A stretch of 64,000 bases of DNA from Bacteroidota bacterium (GTDB lineage: Bacteria > Bacteroidota > Bacteroidia > UKL13-3), in contig CANGVA010000002.1 in NCBI GenBank assembly GCA_947457395.1, forward strand, positions 1 to 64,000, in the 5' to 3' direction. Under the pieces are notes generated by a model. That model searched no databases. It saw nothing but the letters and a program-made list of their open reading frames with translations, and was not told where the DNA came from. This document shows positions 24,801 to 62,029 of this stretch, piece after piece; positions within the stretch are counted from its first letter, which is position 1, and each line of letters begins with the position of its first letter. The position numbers were made by a program, and so were the translations under genes.

Positions 24801-27800
24801 GGATCTCCGCCACGCTCTGCATTATTTGGCGAAGGAAGACCCATATTAACAGACTGAAAATCCCCTGTTGCATTGCTAAAGTTCAGTGTGGCAACACCTG
24901 AAGCTCCATCTCTTAATACACCGGCCTCCCAATCCGAAAGTGTGGTGTAATTTGTTGCCAGCAACCTTCCTGTAAAATTGGTCGCACTGGTGCTAATATC
25001 ATATATATTATTATCTATAGTGTGATTGAGCATGTTAGCCCCACTATTTCTAATTGCAAAATGTTGTCCCGTACCACCGGCATTTGCTGCACGGTTTGCG
25101 AAAATATTGTTCCTGATATCGGTAAATCCCGGAATGGTAATATTGCCGGAAATATCAATAGCAACTACCTGACCAGACCCGGTTGTAGGTTGAGTTTCTA
25201 CGTAAACAGTATTATGTAATATTCTGTTTTGTATTTGTCCGCTTGAATTTAGGTGAATGCCACGTAGGTTAACCGGACGCGTGAGCGCTAAACCAGCAGT
25301 GTCACGCCCCAAACGAATAACATTATTGGTTGTGTTTGTATTTCCGCCACTGATTTGAATACCGGTCATGGTAGCCAAACCCGTTCCGGTATTATCCATA
25401 TTAAAGCTATGTATAAAATTACCGTTTACGGCAATATTGGTATTACCAACAATTGTGGTTGAGCCTGAATAAATAATTCCAAAAACACCTGGTGAACTTG
25501 TACCGGTAGCGTAAGAAACCAAAGAATGAATAGTGTTATTAGATACAGTTTGATTGGTAGCAAAAGATTGGTTATTGATACCAACAATTCCTGTTGCCGA
25601 AGTAGTAAGTGAACGCAGATTTCTTATTGTATTGCCACGAACCACTGAACCGGCACCGCTTGAAAATACAATACCATTTATTTGAGAAGAGTTGGCACTT
25701 AATGCATTGTCAAAGTTTGAAATAGTATTATTGGCAACAATTTGCGGATTGAATGCCGACCAGTTTATGCCATTTATACAAGCACTTGTGCTGGTTGATG
25801 CACTGCTGCTGCGCAAGCTAAAATTACGGATGATGTTATTGCTAACGTTTACTGATCCTGAAGTCATTACAATACCGTTTATGGAATAGCCGATATTGGT
25901 TTGGCGAAGCAGGAAACTATCCAAAACATTGTTGCGCACAAAATTATTGTTGTTACCGGTTAAAGCGCCAATACCTAAGATATTAGATGAATTGTTTATT
26001 GTATTGGCACCGTTGGATTGACTATAAAGCTGCTTAATAATATTATTCTCGGCAACATTGGTACCACCCGAAAGAATAATTCCTGCCATACGTGCACCGC
26101 CTGCAGTACCAGCAGGAAGCTCTGTGCCAACAGGACCATAATAAATTGCGCAGGAATCGGATGGGTCGTTTCCGCCAATGGTATTGTTATTTACAAATTG
26201 GTTTGGACTAAAACTTTGCATAACAATACCATTCCATGCACAAGCAGTAGTAGAACCGGTATTGGTAGAACGAGTGCTCATGGCACGTATGAGGTTACCA
26301 TTTACATTGGAAACATTGTTGCTACCTGATTGCACCACAATACCCCTAACGGCAGTAATCGTAGAGTTTCCTGCGTTATTGATATTGGATAATATATTGT
26401 TTTCAATGGTAACGTTATTTCCTGTACCTGACAAAATACTGGTAAACAAGCCATTGATATTAGCAAATACGCTATTGGTATCTGTTAAATGGCCAATGGT
26501 ATTATTGGTTACGGTTGCAACACCTGGATTTAGAACTGATATACCAACATGGTTATTGGTATTTGCAATGTTCATTAATCTCAAGCTACGAATGGTATTA
26601 TTGGTAATGGTATTGCCTGTAACCGGGCCTCCACTGGCTCTAATGCCTATAAATGAGATGGAGCTGGTAATTACCCAGCGGCTACCTGCAGTTATAGGAG
26701 CCTGCGATGCATTGCCGCCTATAAAATTGCCACTAATAATATTGTTATTGGAATTTGAATTGGTGCTTGGGTTAAAATCTATACAGATAATTGGATTGAG
26801 TGAAGTTGTAAATGCCGTATCATAGAAGCTATTGCCTCTGATACGCCAATTACTGCCATTACCTGCATTAATCGGGGTAACGAAAATTGCGTTTTGTGTA
26901 AATCCGTTAAAATCATTGGAGTCTATCGTATTGTTGTTGTTTTGGAAAATGGATGACTGTCCGTCAGAAACAATTGCCTTGGTGTATTGCAAACCACCAG
27001 AACGGGCAAAATAGTTATTTACGATAGAGATACTGTCATTACCGGTGGCTAAACCAACATTGGTACCACCTATATATACAGCTCCAAAAACGGGTTGGGT
27101 TGCGGTATTGGTGTTATTATTTGCTGATCTTATAATGGTGCTGCGTATGGTAGTTCCAACAGCATCGTTAATGCAACGTATAACAGTTGCTGTGGTTAGG
27201 TTACTTTGGTTCTCTATAGTTAGCTCTCTGGTTTGTGGGCTGGCGCTAGGGCTGCCATCAAATCTTACATATTTTGCTCCATTTAAGATAAAAATTGATG
27301 TGGCATTATTTCCAATAATTGACGGATTGGCACCAACAGCCGGTCTAATTGTTAACGTGTTAATTGATGACATGCCATTATAAGCACCAATCGTTATTGG
27401 GAAAACTTCACCGGTAGCAGTTGAGTAAACCGGGTCAATTAATTGTAAGGTTATTGGGCTCGATGCTCCCCTGCTGTTCAAATCAGCTACTGCAAGTGTA
27501 ATTGAACTGTAATCACCTGCAGCACCAACAGTATATATACCCGACATTGGAGGAATAATAGTACGACCTGCTCCCGGAGGGGTTGTAGGAGATGGGGTAT
27601 ATGCGCTTCCCCCCACAGTTAAACCTGTGCAAGCTGCATTAATTACTCCTGTTGAAACCGCACTGCTCACGTCATAAGCCAGCCAGAAATAGTTGGTATC
27701 TGATGGGTTAAATGATCCTGTTAAAGTACGCACACTATTAAAGCTAAAAGAGCCTGAAGGGTTGGCTACTGTTGAGCCAAACTGATTGGTTTGTGCATAA

Positions 27801-28657
27801 ACAGGAGAGTTACCTGTATAGTATAAACGTGCATTGCTAATGGCATTTGCAGGTGTGGTTCCTGTGGTGTTAAAATTAAATGCTGTTGCATTTAATGGAT
27901 TCGTAAAACCATTTGATGCTACTTTAACGCATAGCATTTCCTGATTAGTTGAGCCAATGCCCACACCACCAGTATTTGATTGCGTGATGGCGGTGCTGCT
28001 ATAAGTCATTGGAGCAACACCCGCAACTGAAATTTCGTCAATATAGATATTGTTATACCAATCTGTAGTTGTTCTAAAGAAGAGGAATAAATTAGGATTC
28101 AGCGCTGGGTTATTGGTTAAAGAAGATGGAATGATAAAAGTATACAAGTACCAACCTGCTGTGGTTACTACCGGATACCTCGTCATGTTTGCATATACAC
28201 TATCAATCAAAATTGAATTACCTTGGTTGTTGCTGTTTCCTGCAAACAATGAAACACGGGCTTCAGTAGTGAATGTAGAATTGTTATGCCTCAATACCCT
28301 AAAAGTCACCGCTACACCATTGCCAGGATTTAAAGAGGCAACAGGAATGGCAGGGGAAGCAAGAACAGCATTACCTGGTACATTCTGATTCCAAGAGTCA
28401 TATTGAGCCATACCAGCGCCTGCAAAAGGGCCTCCGGTGTATGGAGCAGCGCTTGATGCAAGTGTGGCCCTTGTCCATTGCATTGTGCCTGCCTGTGCGG
28501 TTGATGTCCAACCTGTGCCCAATGGTGCGGCTACAGTATCAAAATTGTTTTGCACAAGAATCTGCGCTCTTGCGGGCAAGATTGCCAGAAAGGTAGAAAA
28601 AATCAGCCCTAAGAGAGCTGGGATTTTTCTCAATGAAAAGTTGTAAACGTGTTTCAT
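15890..28657 (-). CDS. Giant secreted surface protein: three beta-helix modules, four IPT/TIG domains, T9SS type A sorting domain
   Basis: The protein has 4255 residues. Order of parts: signal peptide (1-31); jelly-roll/choice-of-anchor-like domain (~32-215); a domain like the N-terminal part of BNR-repeat neuraminidases (~216-370); then three large Asn/Ser/Thr-rich modules starting near 371, 1452 and 2456, each a long series of short NNTI/NNxI turns typical of right-handed parallel beta-helices and ending in a conserved RNNIFAN segment. Linkers near 1320-1450 and 2322-2452 are homologous (PPVITFTPLIN type). Four IPT/TIG domains follow (~3412-3739), then a further beta-rich region, and a type A sorting domain (~4170-4255, VYPNPFTQ...LVKTGN). 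The role is probably adhesion or polysaccharide contact, inferred from the folds; no catalytic site is evident. The gene is intact with no frameshift seen. Confidence 0.95.
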   Translation of the reverse strand: MKHVYNFSLRKIPALLGLIFSTFLAILPARAQILVQNNFDTVAAPLGTGWTSTAQAGTMQWTRATLASSAAPYTGGPFAGAGMAQYDSWNQNVPGNAVLASPAIPVASLNPGNGVAVTFRVLRHNNSTFTTEARVSLFAGNSNNQGNSILIDSVYANMTRYPVVTTAGWYLYTFIIPSSLTNNPALNPNLFLFFRTTTDWYNNIYIDEISVAGVAPMTYSSTAITQSNTGGVGIGSTNQEMLCVKVASNGFTNPLNATAFNFNTTGTTPANAISNARLYYTGNSPVYAQTNQFGSTVANPSGSFSFNSVRTLTGSFNPSDTNYFWLAYDVSSAVSTGVINAACTGLTVGGSAYTPSPTTPPGAGRTIIPPMSGIYTVGAAGDYSSITLAVADLNSRGASSPITLQLIDPVYSTATGEVFPITIGAYNGMSSINTLTIRPAVGANPSIIGNNATSIFILNGAKYVRFDGSPSASPQTRELTIENQSNLTTATVIRCINDAVGTTIRSTIIRSANNNTNTATQPVFGAVYIGGTNVGLATGNDSISIVNNYFARSGGLQYTKAIVSDGQSSIFQNNNNTIDSNDFNGFTQNAIFVTPINAGNGSNWRIRGNSFYDTAFTTSLNPIICIDFNPSTNSNSNNNIISGNFIGGNASQAPITAGSRWVITSSISFIGIRASGGPVTGNTITNNTIRSLRLMNIANTNNHVGISVLNPGVATVTNNTIGHLTDTNSVFANINGLFTSILSGTGNNVTIENNILSNINNAGNSTITAVRGIVVQSGSNNVSNVNGNLIRAMSTRSTNTGSTTACAWNGIVMQSFSPNQFVNNNTIGGNDPSDSCAIYYGPVGTELPAGTAGGARMAGIILSGGTNVAENNIIKQLYSQSNGANTINNSSNILGIGALTGNNNNFVRNNVLDSFLLRQTNIGYSINGIVMTSGSVNVSNNIIRNFSLRSSSASTSTSACINGINWSAFNPQIVANNTISNFDNALSANSSQINGIVFSSGAGSVVRGNTIRNLRSLTTSATGIVGINNQSFATNQTVSNNTIHSLVSYATGTSSPGVFGIIYSGSTTIVGNTNIAVNGNFIHSFNMDNTGTGLATMTGIQISGGNTNTTNNVIRLGRDTAGLALTRPVNLRGIHLNSSGQIQNRILHNTVYVETQPTTGSGQVVAIDISGNITIPGFTDIRNNIFANRAANAGGTGQHFAIRNSGANMLNHTIDNNIYDISTSATNFTGRLLATNYTTLSDWEAGVLRDGASGVATLNFSNATGDFQSVNMGLPSPNNAERGGDPSIASVLSLDFNGNLRDTLSPADIGAFSGRDSILSDVNAPIITYTPLINTSNPGLRTLSATIIDGGGLPLQGNKRPRIYFKKNAAGTWFDTTGILTSGNRFNGSWTFNINPANLGGLTSGDSVYYFVGAEDSLGANFNSSPMFASATGVASITTYPAQPSAYRVLDPLPTSILVGTGQIYPTLTGPGGLFEAINNGIVGANTEALITSNITEPLNFSLNRWNEAGAGGYTVTIRPDVNAQRIISTSTANANGIIQLNNVNGFRMLGWSPIGAPGDTNLIIRSSSISTPAISFINGGINDTFVNVIFESRVSSTASGTFFVQPTTLPATSGVSNVLVQGCHFRQDQTSLTSSLPANGIYINGTSPRLNANFRITGNFLYNCTNSAINVIGNSSGNNFTITSNHVYFNALPAGMTTGFNGISFTPGLTSENNNVSGNWIGGTAPFTGGTNLISSSQFVAMNISAGSGAGTLVNNNVVSNVRITGFSGMTGIFATGSAAVYTINGNRVGNFNDSATSIIFTAASNSRLQGIHSATSGNTTITNDTVVNIFNYGTSTTAAITGILISNGSSNVSNVNNNLIRNLILTSTTNTSTYTSAALIGIMMQSSSNNQFILNNNIRNLQVRSTSAHQTIGIFTTAGVNSVNNNTLAGFFTASTLTNNISWSGGFGPYNALTGIANTGWGAGIHNTNNNVIDSFVSTPGSASGTQLIGIQNTYNSTTQQYMVQNNIVQNLYSSSNTINQGQDAALIGIVNYTQSPNQSTDNNIVRNLRLTANTAGSIIGIYYQGSNSFNGNVASVSRNLVHSLSSNAQAPNVPIIVGVMNNFGRSTFANNMIRLGIDSSGTADTSARATVGILQRNTNTTANNYYHNTILIGGEPQSGAANTAAIEIGGNIADITGFVNVIDIRNNIFANRANNGTNATGKNYAVKLATTLNINSNFNLFNVTGTGGFAGGTSADFALLGGTTGSWQASTGLDRASGSGNPNFVAAASGPYAGVILDVQGSTPIERSGDASVAVATDFYGNSRSGLTSSDIGAHAGNFNQIPDVFPPVITFTPLINSGTFSGVRTFSGVNITDNNGIHTAGANAPRVYYTKDLTNWFSTGPTSFTGSATNATFNFGIDYSVMGTLTVNDTIRYFVIAQDLAGNVVSNSPYAIATNVNTITTYPTNPNRYNFLPIIPANTVFLVGATSTYTSLTGAGGFFEFMNSRTMGGNVFAHITSDLLNETGAVSLNTLSQDGPGAGTFALTIRPDSGTTSTFLVEGNAANALININGANNVKISGVPANGLSTLRRLLIRNNNTTASTILLSNGAQGARLNNLIIEGGNTSAAAGVVSLLVTSGTTGTSQDSITGCIIRNNSTLALPAGIPNFGIYSNGSSVALNAGNVFASNEILNFANSGIAVANLNGNGYVITGNSMYNNLGVTLPTATQFVGINFFTNNNSSGNNISGNFIGGSAANCGGAAWSSTSFTTAFLGIRAAVGTGATTNVSNNTVANLNFSSPGSSQFNAIISDNGNISITNNTVGSLTNNNSIIYANATSHTGITYQGQNNCVIENNTLAGLVIGTSGLTANFSAIQATNGAVSSISGNTIGSTLTNSIQLLGTGTLTGINASVPLNFIPSYNVANNTIRNMHIPNTQSTMIVRGIQLANGSIPNCFNNTISNLTSNSTNILNTFSSGSVMGINVAVGSATIPVIRNNTIFGLRSLNTSSAVTPNVTGIMLSGGQGIIIDANRIYDLTNASTSTSLLPTPSVSAINITSGSINSFITNNQIALGTGSSLNTQLIGIWLNMSSTVYTLNAINNSVMITGTAIGNQNSYAFLRGNNSASELNTYLNIRNNIFANNRAGGTGVHFAIANQTPAPSNFSWTSNSSQYNLFVTTNSGTVGQWGLGSNNLSNWSTNSGSDAWSYYMQAGTGAGQLNLANLFPNAATGNLNTSTTASESWYVFGKGIAGAQVNNLNTDFAGNSRGTTAGFGITIGSTQLATVPTATPPAAVASGLPAANTTVSYTFAARPVATINWGASAPTSATMLNFTGITAANQPSGSNANQYLRLDVSGGTTPYNYGVVLNYDPALLGAVSSAANLRVSTSTTGSTISSPVWVTNPVSNVNQINNTVTTTGLSTSLANMFFTATESNAPPVVNRFVPSTVSVGDSIRIFGRNFTGTTTTQFFNGVNQASYTIVNDTTIATTVPAGATTGVVSVTNSFGTGTSTAIVTVIQPPTITSFNPSSGTIGTTITITGSNFSSATQVRVNGTNVSSFVIVSSTSITAVVASGTTTGTVTVTNPAGTATSASSFTVLPAPSITSFTPASGAVGTTVTITGNNFNAITAVRFNGITASYTVNSVTEISVTVPAAATTGVITVVNGSGTGTSATNFTVLALPTITTISPSSGGVGTTVTINGTNLTGATAVSFNGTAASSFTVISSTQINAVVATGTTTGTVSVTTPAGTTSSSGNFTVISDLVVSTTTAVSGTYNNITVTSTGNAILSGTLTALGNTVVQSGGRMTFGTEILTGTGNFTAQNNSRLVIGSADGVSSSGIIGNIQVNGTRTIANGTVLEYNGSGNQQAGNLASAIDSLIVNTSTGDLLLSANLTVNTRIIFTSGRIRLGANNLTIGSAGVLTGVGSSSYVVTNGAGSLRRTVQNNATNILYPVGSITSYTPAQVQLNATSVTDIISVRVFDGVLANGTSGGNLTTSMVDRTWVVAEAVAGGSNATLSLTWNASDEVGSFNRNNSGVSFYRNTPASWMAPAAYVAATGSNPFTLIRSGLTLSTTPTAFAVGDNLANSTLPVQLTKLIANKAGEDVIVNWSTASEFNNSHFEVERSFNGADFELAGKVDGVGFTNSESNYNFVDEKAALNPTAQVIYYRLKQVDFDGKHTFYGPVAVNISKLVANVNVSVYPNPFTQQVNVQVVSPETGTMQISITDLQGRAVYTGAHEVNKGLQVLTVDGIDTLKDGVYFMNTSINGSVSRVKLVKTGN

Positions 28658-49710: not shown

Positions 49711-49763
49711 AACAAGTTGCGAATTAACACCAACATTGTAAAACTTTGTTATATTTAAACCCG

Positions 49764-52700
49764 ATGAATAAACATTTTATTGTAATTATTTTTCTGTGTT
49801 TATTGCAATCAGCTTTCGCTCAGCTCAATGAAAGCTTTACGGATGGTGATTTTTCCTTAGGCCCTACTTGGCAGGGCGATGATTCCTTATTTCGGGTAAA
49901 CGCTTCCTTGCAACTGCAAAGTAGTGGCACTGCAGGTACTTCAAAAGATATTTATTTAGGTACCCCTTGTACCATTGCGCAAGGTGAGTGGCGATTCTGG
50001 GTAAGGTTTAATCTGAGTCCTAGTACGGCCAATTTCTGCCGATACTACCTGATGAGCGACAACCTTAACCTGAAAGGTGCATTAAATGGATACTATATAC
50101 AATTGGGGGGAATAAGTGGTAACAACGATTCACTAATGCTAATGAAGCAAAAAGGAAACATAGTTACTCAAATTATTGGTGGCAGAAGAGCTACTGTAGC
50201 CAAAGCAAATAATGTGGTAGGCATACGTGTGCTGAGAAACGCATCCGGCAACTGGCAATTGTTTAGCGATACGCTTGGAGGAAATAATTATGTTGCAGAA
50301 GGTAGCGGAACTGATAATGAATTCACATTCTCAGCTTATACCGGGTGGTTTATCAAGTTCACCTCTTCAAATATCACCAATTTCTTTTTGGATGATGTTT
50401 ATACGGGCCCTGTGATTGCAGATAATACCCCACCTGTTATTGACAGTATTGGTATAATAAATTCAAATACGCTACGCATTAAGTTCTCTGAAGCTATTGA
50501 AGTTAACTCAGTAACCGATGTTGTGAATTACACCATCAATAATGGTATTGGTAATCCTATTTCTGCAGATACCGAACCAGGAAATAACCAAGTTGCTGTG
50601 CTCTCGTTCTTTTCAACATTCACAAATAAAAGTAATTATACCATTAGCATATCCGGCATAAGAGACCAAGCAGGGAATACCATGCAGCCTACTCAACGCA
50701 ACTTTATATATTATGTACCCGCGGCTGAAGATGTGTTGATTTCTGAATGGATGGCAGATCCCTCGCCACCGGTTATTTCGCTTCCCGAGCAAGAGTTTAT
50801 TGAGTTACATAACCAAGCAGGCATTCCAATTAATCTTAAAAACTGGTCCGTATCAGATGGAGCCGCTAGTGCTATGCTGCCTGAAATTGTTATTCCTGCC
50901 GATAGTTTTATTATTCTTTGTGCAGCAGCACAGGTATCAGCATTTACTCCATATGGCCTTGTGGCGGGCATTAATGGATTTCCCTCATTAAATAATGCGG
51001 GTGATGCCATCATACTTAAATCTCCTGCAGGTAATATCATTCATCAGCTAAACTATGACCTTAGCTGGTATAATGACGCAACCAAAGTTGATGGCGGTTG
51101 GAGCATAGAATTGATTAATCGCAACAGGATCTGTTCAGGCAGGCAAAACTATACTGCGTCCATTGCTGCAAACGGTGCAACACCCGGCAAGAAAAATAGC
51201 GTATGGGAGAACACCATTGATAGCACAGCTCCACAGATAAAAAAAGTTATTTGTAAAAGCCCTAATGAAATTATTCTGGTTTTAAATGAGGGTGCAGATT
51301 TTAGTAGTATTGGCACATCTGTTATTGCAATTAATAATGGCATTAGTATAGCATCTAAAAGTAGCATTTCAATACAAAACGACAGCCTACTGTTGTTGTT
51401 AAACCCTTTACTGCAAAATAAGCAGACCTATATCATAACCATGAATGGCATAAGGGATTGCAAGCAAAATAGCTCCATCAACACTCAGGCTACATTTACT
51501 TACTTCCAGTCTGATACAGCTAAAACATATGATGTATTGCTAACCGAAATAATGGCAGATCCGGACCCGAGAATAGGTTTACCCGCTGCTGAATACGTTG
51601 AATTATATAACCGCAGCTCCAGAAATATCTCGCTGAAAAACTGGCAACTCAGAGATGCAACCGGAGTGGTATTATTGCCTGACTTGTTATTGCTGCCTGA
51701 TAGTTTTATTGTCTTATGTGCACCAAATAATGCGTCACTGTTTTCAGGAATGAGCAATGTTGTGGGCTTAAATAATTTTCCATCGTTATCTAATGACGGG
51801 GAAACAATAAGCATAAGAAATGCAGATGGCAAGGTAATACATGCCGTTAGCTATTCCTCGTTGTGGTACCGGAATAATTTGAAAAAAGATGGGGGTTGGA
51901 GCCTTGAAATGATAGACGTAAAAAATCCTTGTGGCGAAGCCGGCAACTGGCAAGCCAGTCAAAGCAACAAAGGTGGCACACCGGGTCGAAACAATAGCGT
52001 GCGTAGCAATAATCGTGATTTATTGGCTCCGGAATTAATCAGGGTTTATCCTGCAGACAGCAGCCAACTTATATTATATTTTAGTGAATCGCTCGATTCA
52101 AACACCATCTACCGTATACAACATTATCAATTTAATCCTGCACTATCCTTTACTGCACTTTCAGCGGTTGCCCCGCATTTTAAAGAGGTAAGCATCAACC
52201 TTTCATCAGCCCTGCAAAAAAATATTATTTACCGTTTAATTACCGACTCTATAGCCGACTGTGCAGGCAAACTCATTCAAACAAAAGATTATGCAGACTT
52301 TGGTTTACCTGAACCATTTGCCCCTGGTGAACTGATAATAAATGAATTGCTCTTTAACCCTAAAACCGGAGGAAGCGATTTTGTTGAACTTTATAATAAT
52401 AGCAATAAGGTAATTGATTTAAAACAATTGCGCATAGCAGATACGGATGACAGGGATAGTCTGAATAATATTTATTCAGTTGCACCTTCAGGGTATATTG
52501 TTTTACCTGAACAATATATTGTGCTAACAGAAAATCCGGATATCATTGTGTTGAATTATTTTGGGGCAGACAGGCTAAAAATGATTCAAACTAGTTTGCC
52601 ATCTCTTAATGATGATGAAGGCAATTGTGTCATAGCAGATGCTGCAGGTTTAAGATATGATCAGTTTAATTATGATGATGATTTGCACTTTGCTTTGCTG

Positions 52701-53162
52701 GATGATAAAAACGGTGTGAGTTTAGAGCGCATAGACTATAACAGACCTTCCAATGATCGTACCAACTGGTCCTCTGCTGCTGCTACATCAGGCTATGCTA
52801 CCCCTACAAAAAAAAATTCGCAATACTTACAATCAAATGCAGGTAGTGCTGTGTTATCCCTGTCTTCTGAAATATTTTCACCTGACGGAGACGGTTATCA
52901 GGATCTACTAAACATCTATGTAAAAACTCCTGCAACCGGATACACCGGAACGCTATCTGTTTATGACAATCATGGGCGTATGGTAAAACAACTGATGCGC
53001 AATGATATACTGGGCACCGAAAACACTATTAGCTGGGATGGCATCACTGACAGGAATGAAAAAGCACCTATTGGCATCTACATTATTTATCTGGAAGCAT
53101 TTAATTTAAAAGGCAATACTATCAAAGAAAAAATAACCGTAGTAGTGGGTGCAAAACTTTAA
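49764..53162 (+). CDS. Secreted lamin-tail domain surface protein
   Basis: The protein has 1132 residues from the ATG before the signal peptide (MNKHFIVIIFLCLLQSAFAQ); an in-frame TTG six codons upstream is unlikely. An N-terminal concanavalin-like domain is followed by three repeats of an SbsA-like Ig domain (TPPVIDSI, TAPQIKKV, LAPELIRV starts) and a lamin-tail domain (LISEWMADP, LLTEIMADP, LIINELLFNP starts). The C-terminus is a FlgD-like Ig domain (FSPDGDGYQDLL...SWDGITDRNEKAPIGIY), a layout of T9SS type B-like cargo. The function is probably structural or adhesive. Confidence 0.93.
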   Translation: MNKHFIVIIFLCLLQSAFAQLNESFTDGDFSLGPTWQGDDSLFRVNASLQLQSSGTAGTSKDIYLGTPCTIAQGEWRFWVRFNLSPSTANFCRYYLMSDNLNLKGALNGYYIQLGGISGNNDSLMLMKQKGNIVTQIIGGRRATVAKANNVVGIRVLRNASGNWQLFSDTLGGNNYVAEGSGTDNEFTFSAYTGWFIKFTSSNITNFFLDDVYTGPVIADNTPPVIDSIGIINSNTLRIKFSEAIEVNSVTDVVNYTINNGIGNPISADTEPGNNQVAVLSFFSTFTNKSNYTISISGIRDQAGNTMQPTQRNFIYYVPAAEDVLISEWMADPSPPVISLPEQEFIELHNQAGIPINLKNWSVSDGAASAMLPEIVIPADSFIILCAAAQVSAFTPYGLVAGINGFPSLNNAGDAIILKSPAGNIIHQLNYDLSWYNDATKVDGGWSIELINRNRICSGRQNYTASIAANGATPGKKNSVWENTIDSTAPQIKKVICKSPNEIILVLNEGADFSSIGTSVIAINNGISIASKSSISIQNDSLLLLLNPLLQNKQTYIITMNGIRDCKQNSSINTQATFTYFQSDTAKTYDVLLTEIMADPDPRIGLPAAEYVELYNRSSRNISLKNWQLRDATGVVLLPDLLLLPDSFIVLCAPNNASLFSGMSNVVGLNNFPSLSNDGETISIRNADGKVIHAVSYSSLWYRNNLKKDGGWSLEMIDVKNPCGEAGNWQASQSNKGGTPGRNNSVRSNNRDLLAPELIRVYPADSSQLILYFSESLDSNTIYRIQHYQFNPALSFTALSAVAPHFKEVSINLSSALQKNIIYRLITDSIADCAGKLIQTKDYADFGLPEPFAPGELIINELLFNPKTGGSDFVELYNNSNKVIDLKQLRIADTDDRDSLNNIYSVAPSGYIVLPEQYIVLTENPDIIVLNYFGADRLKMIQTSLPSLNDDEGNCVIADAAGLRYDQFNYDDDLHFALLDDKNGVSLERIDYNRPSNDRTNWSSAAATSGYATPTKKNSQYLQSNAGSAVLSLSSEIFSPDGDGYQDLLNIYVKTPATGYTGTLSVYDNHGRMVKQLMRNDILGTENTISWDGITDRNEKAPIGIYIIYLEAFNLKGNTIKEKITVVVGAKL

Positions 53163-54060: not shown

Positions 54061-57000
54061 TTACTTAATGAGTGTAACGGTACCTGTAACTGTTACAGGA
54101 TCCTGTGCTCTAAGCTGATAATTAAATATGAAGTAGTAAACACCTGCAGGGCATTCGCCACCATCATTCATATCTTTTCCGTTCCAGGTCTTTTTACTGT
54201 CTTTGCTCTCAAAAACCTTATTACCCCAGCGGTTAAAGATTTGCAGATCATATTTATCCTCTCCCTCAATTTCAATTACAAAATTGTCATTGCTGCCATC
54301 ACCGTTAGGCGAAAACACATTCGGTATTTTAATCTTAGTTAAAAATCTGTTACTAATAATTTTACATACCGTATCTGCGCAATCAGCCGGAGGTTCGATA
54401 TGCCAAGCTTTTAAGCAGATTTTAAAGTCACCCGTATCGTTTTTGAAATCTACTTCAAAATCCATATCACTAAGGTTACCCATTTTAGGATTTGATCCAC
54501 CTTTTATTTCACCATCAACCGGCACGTAGATGCTGCCATCTGATTTATACAATGTCCACTCAAACACATCGGAATTTTGAACCGGAGTATTGGTTGTATT
54601 TTTCATCAGATATTTAGCTGAATTTGGATCTACGCGCACCGTATCAAATGCCGGTGTTGGTTTTACAACACTGATATATGATGTATCGCGCACCTCGCAA
54701 TTTCTCTCAGCACCCGCAGGTATCTGCAATGGATCGAAACCTCTTGGTATCGAATGAATCTGGAAACGTCCTACACTATCAAACCTAAAGGTCACAAAAT
54801 CAGGTGCAGCTTGATTTCTGCTCACACTATCAATAGCTGACATATCTGTATTATTGTAACGTTTGTAAACGAATCTGTTAAAGGCGTTATCAGAAGTATT
54901 TCTAAACTTAGCCTCTGTACCTACGCACACTATTGTGTCATCCGGACTCAATTCATTATTGAATTTTTTAACATAAATTTTTATTGGCTGATTATACAAC
55001 TGCCCTGTTAGCGGATCTGTTGTTGTATCTGGGAATATTGCGGGCAAACAAGTTACCGGATTAGGGAACTTAGCATCGCGACCAACTGCCAAAATTTGGA
55101 ACACACCAGAATCTTGATAAACGTGTTCAACCGTATCGCGTCTACCCAAAACGGATAGCGGGTTGCTACCCGGATCACCCCAATAAATAATTGTTTCTAC
55201 GGTTGGTGTGTCTGATGGATCCTGCATTCCAATTGAGTCGGCAAGGTTCCAGATTCTTACACGTAAAGGTGCACATCCGAGTGTATCTGACAACAACTTA
55301 AACCTTGGCCTAGGTCCTTTTATAAAAATGGTTTCATAAGCGGAATCTGCGCAACCTTGCTCTGTAACAACTTTTAGTTTTACTTTAAACTCCCCATTTG
55401 ATTTATATGGCCATGTTGCTTTGATAGGTCTAAAAATATTTTGTCCATCAGGAGTTATGGTATCGTTTTTGTCCTCGCCAAACCACCAATAGTTTAATTT
55501 TATTTTATCAAGTGTTTGGCCACCTGTTAGCAGATATGAAGAATCACCTACTGCGAATACTTCAGCACAATTGAAAACCTTCTTGGCAAGTTCCATCTTC
55601 ACCATCGGCTTAACAATGTTTACCCAGCGTACGCATGTATCCCAGAAACCTAAGCTATCGCGGGTATACATCTTCACTGCGTAGCGACCGTAATCGAGAT
55701 ATTGGTGTGTTGGGCTTACACCTTCATAAATTGGTGAGCCGTCTCCAAAATCCCAATACATGCGTTCCCTGCGAGTAGTATCAACTCGAAGCGTAATATT
55801 ATATGCATCACCTGGAGGTAGTCCGGGTAATGGCACAACAGTTCCTGTTGGATTATACCTGAACATCGGGTTAGGGAATGTTCCTTTTACTTCTGGCAGT
55901 TTGCCGTCTTCAAAGCGCCAGAAATCTGCAGTATCAATCAGGAAATTACATCCAAAACCAGGCATCAGCAGCACATCTTTTACTGCAACTGCATCATAAC
56001 CATAATTAGGGTCTGTTGTGAGTCCCAAAGGTCTGATATCTCTACTGATGGTTCTGCCCGGGCCTGGAGGGTTATTACAATTACTTTTCGCGCAATCATA
56101 TCTCCAGTACCTCACCGAGTCATCAAAGTGAATGGGCTCATTTGCGCAGAATACAGTATCCTCTACACCTCTTGAGTCTTTAATAAAGAAGGTATCAATT
56201 ACTCCAATAATTACCGGTATTGCAAAAAACTGCTGGCAATTTTGCCTGGTTACAATCAGGTGAACTATGCTATTCCACTCAGATTGATCATTACTACCCG
56301 TGGCCTCCCAACTTGACCTGACAAATTTGTGTGTAATTGGCAGGAACATCATGGATGTATCTGCTATGTAAAATGGAGGATTGACTTTGGGAGCACCGGT
56401 ACACCAATCTACCAGATCGTAATATACGTTGGTAAATAATCCCGGTGTTCTTGGTTTTAAACCATTGGTGGCACCAACACCTGAAGCACGAATCGGAAAA
56501 ACTGTTGAATCCATGAGCACACAATTGCCACCAAAACAATCAAAATTATATCTAACCCTACGGATTCCCTTTTCGTAAAATGAGTTGGTAACGCCAGACC
56601 CATTATACCAGAAAGAGTCAACTGTTTGTGTTGCATCACCCCAATCCCAAATACTATAAGCAATACTATCCATGATACTATCAAGGTATAGTACCGTAAT
56701 ATCATCACCTTTACCTCTGTAGCGGCAGGTTCCTGCCTGGAATGGTGTAATACTTGAATAGCGAGGTATTACAGGCTGCGAGGCAGGGAAAACGTCAAAT
56801 TGTGCTTCTAAGTTTAAAATACGTAGGAAGTTGTGATACCATACTGTATTGGTTTTATTATTGGCATGGTTGCAATCAAAATATTTAACATCCAGATGGG
56901 TGCCATTTGCCTGTGGAACGGTATCGCCATACGCAAAGTTATATACTACGAACTGAGGCTGATTAGGATCTACAGGGCTAGGTGGACTCTGTGGCGCAGG

Positions 57001-60000
57001 AGGTCCAGGATTAGCAGGCATACCCACTATAAACGGATCAGTAGATAACTGAAAGATAGGTGTTGTGGTGATCTGAGCTGAATTCTGAATGAAATTCGCT
57101 CTTGGCATGGTAACCGTATTCTCCTTGCAACCGCAACCTATTTGTAAACCTACTGTAATCCATCCGCCAATTGTATCTGCCGGAGGTGGGAATTGGAATG
57201 CCGAGGCAGGGCCTGCATTATATCCAAAGTGCCATACCATACTTGTTCCACGAGCATTTGTCCATGGACAACCAGGCCTAGGGGCAGCGTTAGGACATGT
57301 GTTAAAATTTGGTCTGATTAATCCCCCTGGGGTCGTTCCCCCCCTATAACCAGTCCAGGCGTCCAAATCACAAGGGGTATTGTCTTTTCTATCGGCAAGA
57401 GAGTCAATGTTTAATAAGATATGTGTTTGGCCGCAATTTGGCGTAACACCAGGATAACTGCCAATACCGGCAAGGCTTAAATCAATGCGTGCTCCCAGAC
57501 CTGTGGTTAGGTCACCGGGGCACTCTTTACCACCTTTTGCAAAACCATAAGCAGTAGCTTTTCCAAGTGCCAACTGTACAGTACCTTCACCATTACAATC
57601 AAAGTTATCAATAGATAAGCTGTCATCAACCAACAGGTTATTGGCATTAAGGCCTTTTGCCCTGTATGGATTGCCTGACTCATTATTTAACGTATCTGCC
57701 ATTTTAAGACGAACCGTTAAACAACGCTGCACCATTCTGGTAAATGTATATTTATGGAACGTCATAGTGCTTCCTGGTAACATATCTCCTGCTGCTACAG
57801 AGTAGGTTTGCCCATTTCTATTATAAGTAACAGAGTTTGGACCAGGAGTTGGAAACGCCCGCAACTGGCCTCCATTTAATATTACATAATCTCCCCTAAG
57901 ATGTGCAAAAGGATCTGGTAAATTACGAATATTGATTTGCTGGTCTACCTGAATCTGATCGGGCCAAAACTGACCCGGTTGTGGTAAGTTATCTACCCTT
58001 GCCCAAGGTTGGCCATAATAAGTACCCTGAACATTGGTGATACGGTTGTTTACCGGGTCCCAAAATTTTTGCCCACCTGACGTAGCCTCTGTTTGCCAAT
58101 CTTTGCCGGTGAGGTACCAGTTGTATACACTATCCCAGTTGGTGTAACTATGGCGAGGTAATGAATCGTGAGAGAATTTACAATTAACCTTACCGGGGAA
58201 AATTTGCCTATTATGAATGAAAAAGTGATTACTGTTTCTATCCTGCTCCAGTGCATTTAAAAACACAAAGCGTGGAGGATTAGGGGGATTTATAACCGGG
58301 AAATATCCAGGTTTAGGCTCTGAAAAAGAAGTACAACGGGGGGCATAATCATCATCAAAATCCCAGCGCATCCAAAGTTTGCGCGACTTAAATGTCATAG
58401 AAGTATTTACAAAATCAACCGTGTAATCGGGTCCGCACTGATTTTTTTGCCAAGGCTTTAACAATACAGGTGGTGGGCTCGTTTTTTCAATTCTAGCAAA
58501 CGGACCTATAACAGAAACACCATATGCTAACTTATCCATTGCGTCAAGAATTGGTGTGTATAACAACAAGGTATCGGTAACACCTCCGGTTATCGGATCA
58601 ATTATTAGATTGCTCTTAGGCATCCAAACAATTGGTTTAGAATAACGACCCTTGTATGGATAAACAGTGTCTCCACTGTGAATTAATTTTCTGTCAAAAG
58701 GTTGATAAATAAGTTGAACGAAATTTCCTCTTGGTACAATAAGTGTATCGCCCAGTTGAGTTATTGGTGTAAACTTAGATATGTAAACAACCAACCCAAA
58801 AGTGTCTCTATAGCGGTAAATGCTGTCTCCAATCTCAGGCAAAAAATATTGTTCAAAGCCTGCAGATCTTATTAACATAACAGAATCTCGTCTACCTTTT
58901 ACTCTGTCTAAGAGCATGGTATATGTAGTATCCTGAGGGTCTACCACTTGTGTTGGAGGAACACCATATGGATTTGCTCCCCAATCATTATCTGCAGGTG
59001 CAAATCCGGATGGGGTTAGAATACTATCAAATCGTGATCTGGTTACGATAGCTGAATAATATGGAATAACACCTGGGCAAACTCTTTTAATAATTAGCTT
59101 CGGAAAGAAGGTACCCATAGCAGAAAATGCATGGCAAACGCTGAATGCACTTGAGTCCTCATTTCGCATAGTTGGGTCGTTTGGATCACCAAAATCCCAC
59201 ACAAAGTCTCCTGTTCCAGGAGCAAGGAAAGTCATAGGCGTAACCTTAAAGCAAATTTCTGTGCTGCTGAAACTTTGCACGCAAACAGTATCTGCATCCT
59301 TACCAAGCGTAGAGTCTCTTTTAAATGTTGTTATATCCAAATCATATACAATGTTGTCTGGAAGTGGCTTGGATGTATTAGAGAATGTTTTCCTTAAAGA
59401 ATCCGTACAATCTGTTAAATCTGTTACTGCCAGCTTTGGATTAAATGGGCCTTTGGTAAAATAGCAATGCGTAATAGTATCATAACTAAAAGAATCGTTT
59501 TTTGTGGTATTGGCATAGAACTGACCATCACCAAAATCCCATCTGTAAGCTTTTGCCTTGTGACGAGGAGCCGCACTCAAGTTTCTGAATTTATAGCAAG
59601 AGTTAAAACATGGACCTGACAACATATTCCAATCAAAATCAATCTGGTTATTTTGATTCACTGTTACTGCTCCAGCCATTATTGTGTCTTTGCGACAACC
59701 TTTGGTGTCTACTGCTCTAAGGAACACATCAAAGGTACCGGGGAAAGTATATGAATGACATGTTACATTATTATTTTTGGTTGTATCAGAACGTGCATCA
59801 CCCCAGTTCCAAAAATATAAATCTATAGGATTGCTTGGTATCTGCGGATTCTGTATGCTATTATTAACAAAACAAATATTATTTCCCCTAAAACATTGTG
59901 TTAATGGGGTTCCGGAAGCAGGCATAGGGATTGGTAAATGATATACATCAAATGTAAAATCATTAGAAGTGACGGTTGCATTATTACTTAACTGCACAAT

Positions 60001-60282
60001 TGCTCTTGCTACATAAACACCTCCTGCAAGCGGAAGTGTTGGAAAGTCAGCAGTGAATGTGTTGGCATTTCTTTGACCAATCAAAGTTCCATTAACAAAG
60101 AAATCAAAACGTGTTGGCGTAATTCCTGCTGATACTCCTGTTACAGTGGCAACCAACTGTGCCTGCTGCCCGGCACAAATTATCGCAGGATTCACATTCA
60201 TAGTAGCTGTCTGGGCTGAGGTTTCGCGCAACTGCAAGAACATTGCAGCAAAAAGAAATAATAGGATTCTTGTATGTTTCAT
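54061..60282 (-). CDS. Giant PKD-domain surface protein with T9SS type B sorting domain
   Basis: The protein has 2073 residues from the ATG before a good signal peptide (MKHTRILLFLFAAMFLQLRETSAQ); an in-frame extension of 38 residues upstream is not credible. An Ig-like domain opens the mature part. At least six PKD-like domains follow, marked by WNWGD, WDFGDG, WDFGDP, WDWGD, WDFGDGSP and similar strands with H-x-Y partner strands. Long Cys-containing spacers lie between them. The last ~90 residues are a CHU_C-type domain (IPNVFSPNGDGSNDNF, NRWGNKVFE, CPAGVYYF, VTLIK). It is the last gene of the sigma operon and its likely main product, with a surface role in adhesion or motility by analogy. 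Confidence 0.93.
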   Translation of the reverse strand: MKHTRILLFLFAAMFLQLRETSAQTATMNVNPAIICAGQQAQLVATVTGVSAGITPTRFDFFVNGTLIGQRNANTFTADFPTLPLAGGVYVARAIVQLSNNATVTSNDFTFDVYHLPIPMPASGTPLTQCFRGNNICFVNNSIQNPQIPSNPIDLYFWNWGDARSDTTKNNNVTCHSYTFPGTFDVFLRAVDTKGCRKDTIMAGAVTVNQNNQIDFDWNMLSGPCFNSCYKFRNLSAAPRHKAKAYRWDFGDGQFYANTTKNDSFSYDTITHCYFTKGPFNPKLAVTDLTDCTDSLRKTFSNTSKPLPDNIVYDLDITTFKRDSTLGKDADTVCVQSFSSTEICFKVTPMTFLAPGTGDFVWDFGDPNDPTMRNEDSSAFSVCHAFSAMGTFFPKLIIKRVCPGVIPYYSAIVTRSRFDSILTPSGFAPADNDWGANPYGVPPTQVVDPQDTTYTMLLDRVKGRRDSVMLIRSAGFEQYFLPEIGDSIYRYRDTFGLVVYISKFTPITQLGDTLIVPRGNFVQLIYQPFDRKLIHSGDTVYPYKGRYSKPIVWMPKSNLIIDPITGGVTDTLLLYTPILDAMDKLAYGVSVIGPFARIEKTSPPPVLLKPWQKNQCGPDYTVDFVNTSMTFKSRKLWMRWDFDDDYAPRCTSFSEPKPGYFPVINPPNPPRFVFLNALEQDRNSNHFFIHNRQIFPGKVNCKFSHDSLPRHSYTNWDSVYNWYLTGKDWQTEATSGGQKFWDPVNNRITNVQGTYYGQPWARVDNLPQPGQFWPDQIQVDQQINIRNLPDPFAHLRGDYVILNGGQLRAFPTPGPNSVTYNRNGQTYSVAAGDMLPGSTMTFHKYTFTRMVQRCLTVRLKMADTLNNESGNPYRAKGLNANNLLVDDSLSIDNFDCNGEGTVQLALGKATAYGFAKGGKECPGDLTTGLGARIDLSLAGIGSYPGVTPNCGQTHILLNIDSLADRKDNTPCDLDAWTGYRGGTTPGGLIRPNFNTCPNAAPRPGCPWTNARGTSMVWHFGYNAGPASAFQFPPPADTIGGWITVGLQIGCGCKENTVTMPRANFIQNSAQITTTPIFQLSTDPFIVGMPANPGPPAPQSPPSPVDPNQPQFVVYNFAYGDTVPQANGTHLDVKYFDCNHANNKTNTVWYHNFLRILNLEAQFDVFPASQPVIPRYSSITPFQAGTCRYRGKGDDITVLYLDSIMDSIAYSIWDWGDATQTVDSFWYNGSGVTNSFYEKGIRRVRYNFDCFGGNCVLMDSTVFPIRASGVGATNGLKPRTPGLFTNVYYDLVDWCTGAPKVNPPFYIADTSMMFLPITHKFVRSSWEATGSNDQSEWNSIVHLIVTRQNCQQFFAIPVIIGVIDTFFIKDSRGVEDTVFCANEPIHFDDSVRYWRYDCAKSNCNNPPGPGRTISRDIRPLGLTTDPNYGYDAVAVKDVLLMPGFGCNFLIDTADFWRFEDGKLPEVKGTFPNPMFRYNPTGTVVPLPGLPPGDAYNITLRVDTTRRERMYWDFGDGSPIYEGVSPTHQYLDYGRYAVKMYTRDSLGFWDTCVRWVNIVKPMVKMELAKKVFNCAEVFAVGDSSYLLTGGQTLDKIKLNYWWFGEDKNDTITPDGQNIFRPIKATWPYKSNGEFKVKLKVVTEQGCADSAYETIFIKGPRPRFKLLSDTLGCAPLRVRIWNLADSIGMQDPSDTPTVETIIYWGDPGSNPLSVLGRRDTVEHVYQDSGVFQILAVGRDAKFPNPVTCLPAIFPDTTTDPLTGQLYNQPIKIYVKKFNNELSPDDTIVCVGTEAKFRNTSDNAFNRFVYKRYNNTDMSAIDSVSRNQAAPDFVTFRFDSVGRFQIHSIPRGFDPLQIPAGAERNCEVRDTSYISVVKPTPAFDTVRVDPNSAKYLMKNTTNTPVQNSDVFEWTLYKSDGSIYVPVDGEIKGGSNPKMGNLSDMDFEVDFKNDTGDFKICLKAWHIEPPADCADTVCKIISNRFLTKIKIPNVFSPNGDGSNDNFVIEIEGEDKYDLQIFNRWGNKVFESKDSKKTWNGKDMNDGGECPAGVYYFIFNYQLRAQDPVTVTGTVTLIK

Positions 60283-60400: not shown

Positions 60401-61351
60401 TTATCGAACCAATTTAAATTTTCCCGACTTTACATGCTCCCTTTCCAATCCTTTTAGCCTATACCTCAGGGTATAAACGTACCATCCGGCCGTGCATTCT
60501 TCTCCATTAATGCGGTTTAAACCATTCCATCTTTTTTCTTTGCTATTTGTTTCAAATACAACCTTTCCGCTAAGGTCAAGAATCATAAAATAGAACGACT
60601 CCTCATTTTCAATCTCTACCACAAACTCATCGTTGAAAGTATCCCCGTTTGGTGAGAATGACCCAGGTATACTTAGCCTTGCCTCTTCTTCATACTCCCA
60701 GGAAGACTTTTCCCGTTGATTAGCTTCTAAAGGGGTTTTGGTAGCATTATTTTCATGTTTATTGGCAATGTGTGTTCTAGAATCACTTACCTCGTCAGTA
60801 TAGGTTTGCTTATCTCTTAAATCCGCATTATTATTTATTTCCTTACGCTGCTGCGTGGCAATGTCCTGTCTTGGAGCGTCTTTATTCTCGCTTAGCTTGT
60901 TCTCATCAACCGAATTTGAAATTTGCCGACCTGATTTGGTTTTCTTTTTGCCGGTAGCGGCTCGTAAGGGTTCATTTTCAACTGCGGCAGGCAAAGGGCC
61001 TTGATCTATAACAACGGATTGCTCCATTGCAGGCATATTATTTTCTTTCCGTTCCGAAGGCCTCTCGGCAACCTTAGGTTTGGGTAATTCTTCCTTACCG
61101 ATTTGTTTATTAATTACAGCCATGTATGTGAAAACCGCTGTGGCAAAAATTGTTAAGCCTGCAACCCCTATAATTGTTTGGGTAGATGCCAAGCCACCCT
61201 TAATACCAGCCTGAAACTGACCCTGCGAAGCACCTGTATTTGCAGAAGCAAGCCCCTGCTCTATTCCATACCACACATCAGGGTTTTCCGGATTAAAATC
61301 ACGGAACTCCGTTTTTAATAACTCATCTATATTATTTGGTGTGCTATTCAT
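60401..61351 (-). CDS. Putative anti-sigma factor carrying a T9SS type B sorting domain
   Basis: The 316-residue protein has no cleavable signal peptide. Residues 1-35 (DELLKTEFRDFNPENPDVWYGIEQGL) resemble the short cytoplasmic N-terminus of Bacteroidetes anti-sigma-like proteins encoded beside ECF sigma factors. One transmembrane helix follows (about 58-80), then a Lys/Glu/Asn-rich, probably disordered linker (about 85-220). The end (about 226-316) is a CHU_C domain (PGSFSPNGDTFNDEF, KRWNG, GEECTAGWYVY, KFKLVR). Where relatives have a beta-barrel, this one has a T9SS signal. Its ATG directly abuts the sigma stop codon (TAAATG), implying coupled translation. Anti-sigma function is inferred from layout and position. 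Confidence 0.85.
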   Translation of the reverse strand: MNSTPNNIDELLKTEFRDFNPENPDVWYGIEQGLASANTGASQGQFQAGIKGGLASTQTIIGVAGLTIFATAVFTYMAVINKQIGKEELPKPKVAERPSERKENNMPAMEQSVVIDQGPLPAAVENEPLRAATGKKKTKSGRQISNSVDENKLSENKDAPRQDIATQQRKEINNNADLRDKQTYTDEVSDSRTHIANKHENNATKTPLEANQREKSSWEYEEEARLSIPGSFSPNGDTFNDEFVVEIENEESFYFMILDLSGKVVFETNSKEKRWNGLNRINGEECTAGWYVYTLRYRLKGLEREHVKSGKFKLVR

Positions 61352-61888
61352 TTAACTTCTTCGTTTAATAAGTGCCTCTTGCAGCAATACGCGGGCCCTT
61401 GATAATTGAGACTTTGAAGTACCTTCACTAATGCCAAGCATTTCAGCTATTTCAGCGTGTGAATAACCCTCTATTACATACATATTAAGAACTGTTCGAT
61501 ACCCAGGAGCCAATTTATTCAAAGCAATAAGTATCTCTTTTCTACTCATATGCTCCACCGTAAAATCATGATGAGGGTTATCAACTGCCAATTCTACATC
61601 ACTCTGGTTCATATGGCTTTTGTTTACCCGATAAAACTCAAGAGCAGTATTAACAAATATTCTCTTCATCCATCCCTCAAATGAACCACTGAAGCGATAT
61701 TGGCCTAATTTAGTAAAAACCTTTATAAAGCCATCCTGAAGAATATCTTTTGCTTCTTCGTATCCGTTGCTATATCGTAAACATATTCCAAACATGGTTC
61801 TTGCGTAATGGTCGTAGAGTTGTTTATGAGCCTTTCGGTCCCCTTTTAAACATAAGTTTATCAGTTCTTTTTCATTAAAATCACTCAC
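61352..61888 (-). CDS. ECF-type RNA polymerase sigma factor
   Basis: The 178-residue sigma-70 family protein starts at GTG. Region 2 covers LYDHYARTMFGICLRYSNGYEEAKDILQDGFIKVF and KGWM-like SGSFEGWMKRIFVNTALEFYR. Region 4 covers LNKLAPGYRTVLNMYVIEGYSHAEIAEMLGISEGTSKSQLSRAR, the -35 binding helix-turn-helix. Regions 1 and 3 are absent, as in ECF factors. It heads the operon and probably controls it and unknown other genes. Confidence 0.96.
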   Translation of the reverse strand: MSDFNEKELINLCLKGDRKAHKQLYDHYARTMFGICLRYSNGYEEAKDILQDGFIKVFTKLGQYRFSGSFEGWMKRIFVNTALEFYRVNKSHMNQSDVELAVDNPHHDFTVEHMSRKEILIALNKLAPGYRTVLNMYVIEGYSHAEIAEMLGISEGTSKSQLSRARVLLQEALIKRRS

Positions 61889-62029
61889 TTTTTTGGCAGC
61901 TTACTGTTTCAGATGTATTTGTTAAAGGGAAGGTTGCAATTTTTAAAAAATAGTTAAAACTTTCATAATTATAGCCTTGCCAAATGAAATATTCTTACCT
62001 TAGTGGCATTGCTATTTTTCACTAAAATA

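Follow-up and report, generated by a model that had tools for sequence, protein, structure and literature searches.

A putative trans-envelope anti-sigma factor with a type B T9SS-like C-terminal domain as its outer module in Bacteroidota

The locus described here encodes an ECF sigma factor and, directly after it, a 316-residue membrane protein that we regard, by analogy with the Dma family, as a putative trans-envelope anti-sigma factor resembling Dma in its working and carrying a different outer module. That module is a CHU_C domain like the C-terminal domain (CTD) of type B substrates of the type IX secretion system (T9SS). The window, the whole stretch of DNA analysed, comprises 64,000 nucleotides (positions 1 to 64,000 of contig CANGVA010000002.1, assembly GCA_947457395.1) from a Bacteroidota bacterium. 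An earlier note on this DNA had correctly drawn the range 60401-61888 around the sigma gene and the gene for the CTD-bearing membrane protein. These two genes stand as named; the giant PKD and type B gene and the divergent DUF7948 gene, which also belong to the locus, were missing from it (Table 1).

Table 1. Features of the sigma/anti-sigma locus, with positions in the window.
Feature	Position	Strand	Basis
ECF sigma factor gene, 178 aa	61352..61888	(-)	Pfam/NCBIfam; fusion model like anti-sigma-bound ECF structures
Putative membrane anti-sigma gene, 316 aa, with CHU_C (type B T9SS-like) C-terminal domain	60401..61351	(-)	
Predicted sigma-binding segment, residues 7-41, two helices, motif ID.LLK..F..F.P..P..W	61229..61333	(-)	Conserved D9, L12, P24, W27
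Single membrane helix, residues ~60-82, N-in by the positive-inside rule	61106..61174	(-)	Hydropathy, charge bias, model
Disordered periplasmic tether, residues 83-224, rich in E/N/K/S/T/P	60680..61105	(-)	Low identity, low pLDDT
CHU_C / type B-like C-terminal domain, residues 225-316, DLSG instead of cargo RWG	60404..60679	(-)	
Giant secreted PKD protein, ~2070 aa, cargo-type CHU_C with NRWG	54061..60282	(-)	PKD and CHU_C matches; conserved neighbour
Divergent DUF7948 + PKD + CHU_C protein, 1525 aa	62003..64000, continuing past the window end to G000:C2:66580	(+)	
ECF-type promoter of the sigma operon, TTGCAACC-N16-CATC	61912..61939	(-)	Conserved upstream of sigma at related loci

The sigma gene product matches Sigma70_r2 (E=3e-12) and r4_2 (E=5e-18), and its TIGR02985 match falls below the cut-off. 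The TAA stop of the sigma gene abuts the ATG of the anti-sigma gene, and both genes lie in one frame. The next gene after the anti-sigma gene encodes the giant PKD and type B protein. This order of sigma, CTD-bearing membrane protein and CTD protein of ~2000 aa is common to the full-length relatives in the same family, and a divergent DUF7948-like ORF is often present at the related loci of that family. A PorP/SprF gene was found neither in the local operon nor adjacent to it in the window. Elsewhere in the window, positions 49746-53162 encode a 1138-aa protein with lamin-tail (LTD) domains, Big_5 and a marginal CHU_C match, and a 4255-aa open frame occupies 15890-28657 on the minus strand. 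At two loci of family f15 (L273:6474-7783 and L275:242-1569), a second sigma gene and a small membrane protein gene directly follow the sigma/CTD-anti-sigma pair, and this second pair stands before a uvrC-like gene.

The 316-aa protein is composed of a conserved cytoplasmic segment of ~35 residues, one membrane helix, a variable tether of 146 residues and the CHU_C / type B domain. The last of these matches CHU_C (PF13585) at residues 227-300 with E=4e-14 and 52.9 bits (cut-off 27) and TIGR04131, the type B model, just above its cut-off, so the protein has the C-terminal trait of T9SS type B substrates. Pairwise comparison of 24 proteins of the family gives mean identities of 39% in the N-terminal segment (residues 8-41) and 45% in the CTD, against 14% in the linker. 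Residues D9, P24, and W27 of the N-terminus and P234, D237, E267, W275, G277, G283, C286, and G289 of the CTD are invariant in the family. This pattern indicates selection on both ends, with the tether conserved in kind only. Cys286 of the CTD (window 60401-60679), invariant in 24/24 family members, is absent from some other type B CTDs. When the protein was modelled alone, pLDDT was ~97 in the CTD and mostly ~50-60 in the tether, with the helix placed at residues 66-82. In the set of 68 CTD-type relatives described below the linker measures 122-273 residues; even the shortest of these, like the 146 residues of the window protein, suffices to span the periplasm.

Relatives were collected with a profile of the N-terminus and helix only, which is blind to the CTD yet was built from CTD-bearing members. 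It matched in 155 of the 247 genomes of the class that were searched, and 89 of its best matches were taken for counting. The earlier note had proposed to count how often this architecture follows an ECF sigma gene: a sigma gene lies directly upstream in 83/89 of these best matches, a CHU_C end is present in 68/89, and the two occur together in 64/89. A Pfam check of the 68 CTD-type proteins recovered CHU_C in 67/68 and PKD in 32/68. CTD-type proteins among these 89 matches come from at least 66 of the 247 sampled class genomes and at least 16 families. The reverse search, starting from the sigma factor, gave the same picture: at 73 of the 80 best sigma-homologue loci the N-terminal profile matches a gene, nearly always the one after sigma, whatever its C-terminus. 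Another 82 relatives lack the CTD and share the same N-terminus, and 32 of them carry an outer-membrane protein (OMP) beta-barrel, which bears out the earlier proposal that a CHU_C domain stands where relatives have a barrel. In a sample of 198 genomes of the phylum, all of the matches listed fall within the same class. On the sigma tree, the sigmas paired with CTD proteins cluster, requiring 8 changes compared with 56 in shuffles; so few changes make a single origin of the CTD architecture, or a small number of origins, probable. Anti-sigma-like proteins at Chitinophagaceae-type loci (L083, L090, L107, L138, and L146) contain the PP..W..I motif in two tandem copies ahead of a helix near residue 80, and many have no C-terminal domain recognised by Pfam; they may carry another, still nameless, outer module.

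The shared frame made it possible to model the sigma factor and residues 1-95 of the anti-sigma protein as a single chain, with the stop codon read as Gly. In this fusion model the N-terminal helices (residues ~7-17 and ~27-41) reach a block pLDDT of 88-96, a value to be read with the one-residue tether and the paired rows, which favour proximity. In the protein alone, helix 1 has a pLDDT of ~81 and helix 2 of ~62. Compared with the PDB, the fusion comes closest to the sigma chains of the anti-sigma complexes SigW-RsiW, RpoE-NepR, and CnrH-CnrY (TMt 0.60-0.70). RNAP-bound ECF factors aligned by domain only (TMt 0.33-0.46, rmsd ~25), and the sigmaE-RseA and AlgU-MucA complexes matched more poorly as well (rmsd ~13-15). 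Given the biases of tether and deeper paired alignment, the fact that this model gives sigma the shape seen in anti-sigma-bound ECF factors is support, not proof. The prediction of sigma with the N-terminus had been proposed in the earlier note, with a lack of predicted binding as the adverse outcome; it gave a confident tethered model, and the adverse outcome did not occur. No PDB relative was found by sequence for the whole protein or for its N-terminus. The ECF sigma neighbour and the anti-sigma layout, both claimed at the outset, draw support from operon, conservation, topology and the tethered complex model, and the anti-sigma identity of the 316-aa product is well supported.

We then compared the CTDs of the anti-sigma proteins with those of cargo. 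The landmarks TPNGD, WDG, and G.Y of type B domains are retained in the anti-sigma CTDs. The tryptophan of the RWG motif, by alignment, is present in 42/42 non-redundant cargo type B domains and in 0/88 anti-sigma CTDs, and RWG also occurs in the aligned Aureispira grappling hook protein. Even the relaxed pattern R[WYF]G is found in 5/88 anti-sigma CTDs against 42/42 cargo domains (Fisher p=6e-29, with independence overstated because the sequences are related). In the CTD tree, the two groups lie largely apart, with 4 changes against 35 when shuffled and 11 after removal of the motif columns, both trees being poorly resolved. Copying of the CTD from the neighbouring cargo was considered and rejected: a BLAST search of the genome ranks the CTD of that cargo closest (39%), yet the match is not reciprocal and the trees keep the groups mostly apart. 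In SprB, mutation of each of five conserved CTD motifs abolished secretion, and RWG may or may not be among them (PMC12618676). The loss of the tryptophan from 88/88 CTDs makes an ordinary cargo-signal role for the domain improbable; judged by sequence, it is probably a retained sensor or docking module and no working export tag. The simplest reading of the alignment would be a domain that is recognised but retained, or one turned to another use. The earlier idea that the protein senses T9SS export needs amending in this respect.

The genome encodes SprA and three PorP/SprF proteins, two of the latter from tandem genes (G000:C21:6112-8059) that are candidate shuttles for its orphan type B cargo. 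A PorX-type PglZ protein is encoded at G000:C11, separate from the sigma locus. SprA is present in 239/247 class genomes; being nearly universal, it makes co-occurrence with T9SS uninformative, and this line of evidence was dropped. One full-length SprA frame (G141:C31:2804-9811) contains three in-frame TGA codons, a possible recoding or assembly error. A co-directional type B cargo gene lies downstream of the anti-sigma gene across its own family. Of 20 sampled loci, drawn mostly from other families, 11 have a CTD gene downstream in the same direction, followed in one by a PorP/SprF gene, and about half of the sampled loci outside the family have no adjoining CTD cargo. The frequent presence of type B cargo in its operon makes T9SS sensing by the CTD anti-sigma plausible.

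At related loci, the promoter pattern TTGCAACC-N16-C(A/G)TC is strongly conserved ahead of the sigma gene. The strict pattern has 44 matches in the whole genome compared with 16 for the reversed control. Among the 43 matches that could be placed, the sigma promoter alone is both intergenic and just upstream of a gene; one further intergenic match has no gene near it. A wide regulon was rejected on the strict pattern. With its own operon as the sole gene-proximal target, the circuit is predicted to be local, comprising the sigma factor, the anti-sigma protein and, if co-transcribed, the giant cargo.

Taken together, these results lead us to propose a trans-envelope anti-sigma factor whose CTD remains in place to sense the type B T9SS or dock with it, and in which a change in docking frees sigma for its own operon; we give this proposal an even chance. 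Two short N-terminal helices would bind and silence the ECF sigma encoded just upstream, and the membrane helix would fix the anti-sigma protein in the inner membrane. With the disordered tether, of at least ~120 residues, the Ig domain, which resembles a type B CTD, would extend as far as the outer membrane. Its docking partner there would belong to the type B pathway, be it the SprA translocon, a PorP/SprF shuttle or the co-encoded giant cargo, and the CTD would not direct export of the protein that carries it. Altered docking, caused by cargo competition or by blocked or running export, would free sigma through conformation or proteolysis, and the freed sigma would transcribe its own operon, including the giant type B surface protein, whose synthesis would thereby be matched to export capacity. 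Operon, domain layout, conservation, topology signature, predicted sigma complex, promoter and RWG loss are the parts supported by the analysis. Docking to a type B route component with release of sigma upon its change is the most likely reading, and we infer the docking partner, the sign of the signal and the release step.

The main competing explanation is an anti-sigma factor whose CHU_C-like domain has left the T9SS and become a plain Ig module for another envelope signal, such as peptidoglycan, outer-membrane state or a ligand. The complete loss of the RWG tryptophan may mean the loss of all T9SS contact. The tendency of anti-sigma CTDs to group apart from cargo (less clearly with 11 changes once the motif columns are removed), the loci with no nearby CTD cargo and the Foldseek search with the full-length model, which gave weak generic Ig-like matches to the CTD and nothing better, point the same way. 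On the other hand, every other type B landmark is retained, type B cargo is often the next gene, and a PKD module precedes the CTD in 32/68 proteins, as in cargo tails. We consider this explanation unlikely, though a serious contender. Alternatively, the T9SS translocon could deliver the CTD to the cell surface with the N-terminus still held in the inner membrane, leaving a protein that spans both membranes and senses the outside. The tether of 122-273 residues, the report that type B CTDs are probably uncleaved (PMC10202324) and the Dma precedent of spanning both membranes (PMC13088901) are consistent with such an arrangement. Against it, RWG is absent from all anti-sigma CTDs and secretion of SprB needs each of its five CTD motifs, among which RWG may or may not be counted (PMC12618676). 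We regard a surface-exposed CTD as quite improbable.

Cargo of type B has a cleaved Sec signal peptide; here, the helix at residues ~60-82 lies behind a conserved cytoplasmic segment. In the 68 CTD-type relatives, 44-89 residues precede the helix, positive charge is on its N-side in 57/68 and on the opposite side in 5/68, and no conserved signal-peptidase site was found, an AxA-like site occurring in just 19/68. The length of the N-terminus, the charge bias and the lack of a conserved cleavage site fit an uncleaved N-in anchor. The short cytoplasmic N-terminus and single membrane helix described in the earlier note are thus upheld by hydropathy, charge bias and the modelled helix, and no relatives with a cleaved signal peptide, the outcome it had named as contrary, came to light. 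Although CHU_C scores above the curated cut-offs, ordinary exported cargo with a signal peptide and a coincidental sigma neighbour is scarcely credible and was rejected on the length, conservation and charge of the N-terminus, the AxA counts, the operon context (sigma directly upstream in 83/89 relatives) and an N-terminus common to barrel-bearing anti-sigma-like proteins.

Dma is a dual membrane-spanning anti-sigma family with a C-terminal outer-membrane beta-barrel (PMC13088901). The protein shares with Dma the N-terminal anti-sigma segment, the single membrane helix, the long disordered tether and a gene adjoining an ECF sigma gene (PMC13088901), and relatives matched by the same N-terminal profile carry OMP beta-barrels. 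It differs in its outer module: the window protein has no barrel, and a CHU_C type B-like domain, often accompanied by a PKD module, takes its place; a cognate sigma of group ECF21 is a further Dma trait. Like type B substrates such as SprB, the protein has CHU_C/TIGR04131 with TPNGD, WDG, and G.Y, and such cargo often adjoins it (PMC9143113, PMC12618676). Unlike them, it has an uncleaved anchor with a conserved cytoplasmic segment, has lost RWG, and in the window has no adjacent PorP/SprF gene. Lacking the barrel, the CTD protein falls outside Dma; with its anchor retained and RWG gone, it is no normal type B substrate either. In P. gingivalis, PorA-PorXY-SigP also links a CTD-bearing protein to ECF sigma activity, with PorA a surface protein thought to act via the PorY kinase and PorX (PMC7712824). 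The earlier note took this pathway as the closest analogy, which did not hold: in the present locus, CTD and putative anti-sigma form a single protein, the PorX-type PglZ is encoded separately, and Dma is closer. The F. psychrophilum SM6 regulon, in which T9SS genes and an ECF sigma/anti-sigma pair are co-transcribed from ECF-type promoters (PMC9723704), is a precedent for sigma-T9SS coupling, whereas the predicted regulon here is its own operon only. As in CnrY and NepR (PDB 4cxf, 5uxx), a short helical segment is predicted to hold sigma compact; unlike these, the protein showed no sequence relationship to any solved structure.

Among open-licence papers, we found no published description of an anti-sigma factor with a T9SS CTD. 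To our knowledge, how the state of type IX secretion is sensed in Bacteroidota is largely open outside P. gingivalis. The protein joins a putative anti-sigma domain to a secretion-signal-like domain, a combination common in the class (at least 66 of 247 genomes, at least 16 families). The missing RWG offers a specific molecular entry point for separating what export requires of a type B signal from what recognition requires. As a tentative view, to which we give somewhat less than even weight, these widespread anti-sigmas would use an export-incompetent imitation of a type B signal as bait, reading T9SS load directly and adjusting the expression of giant type B surface proteins with no separate sensor kinase. 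More broadly, our findings suggest that anti-sigmas of Bacteroidota are modular, with one sigma-binding segment and exchangeable outer modules, including barrels, CTDs and others.
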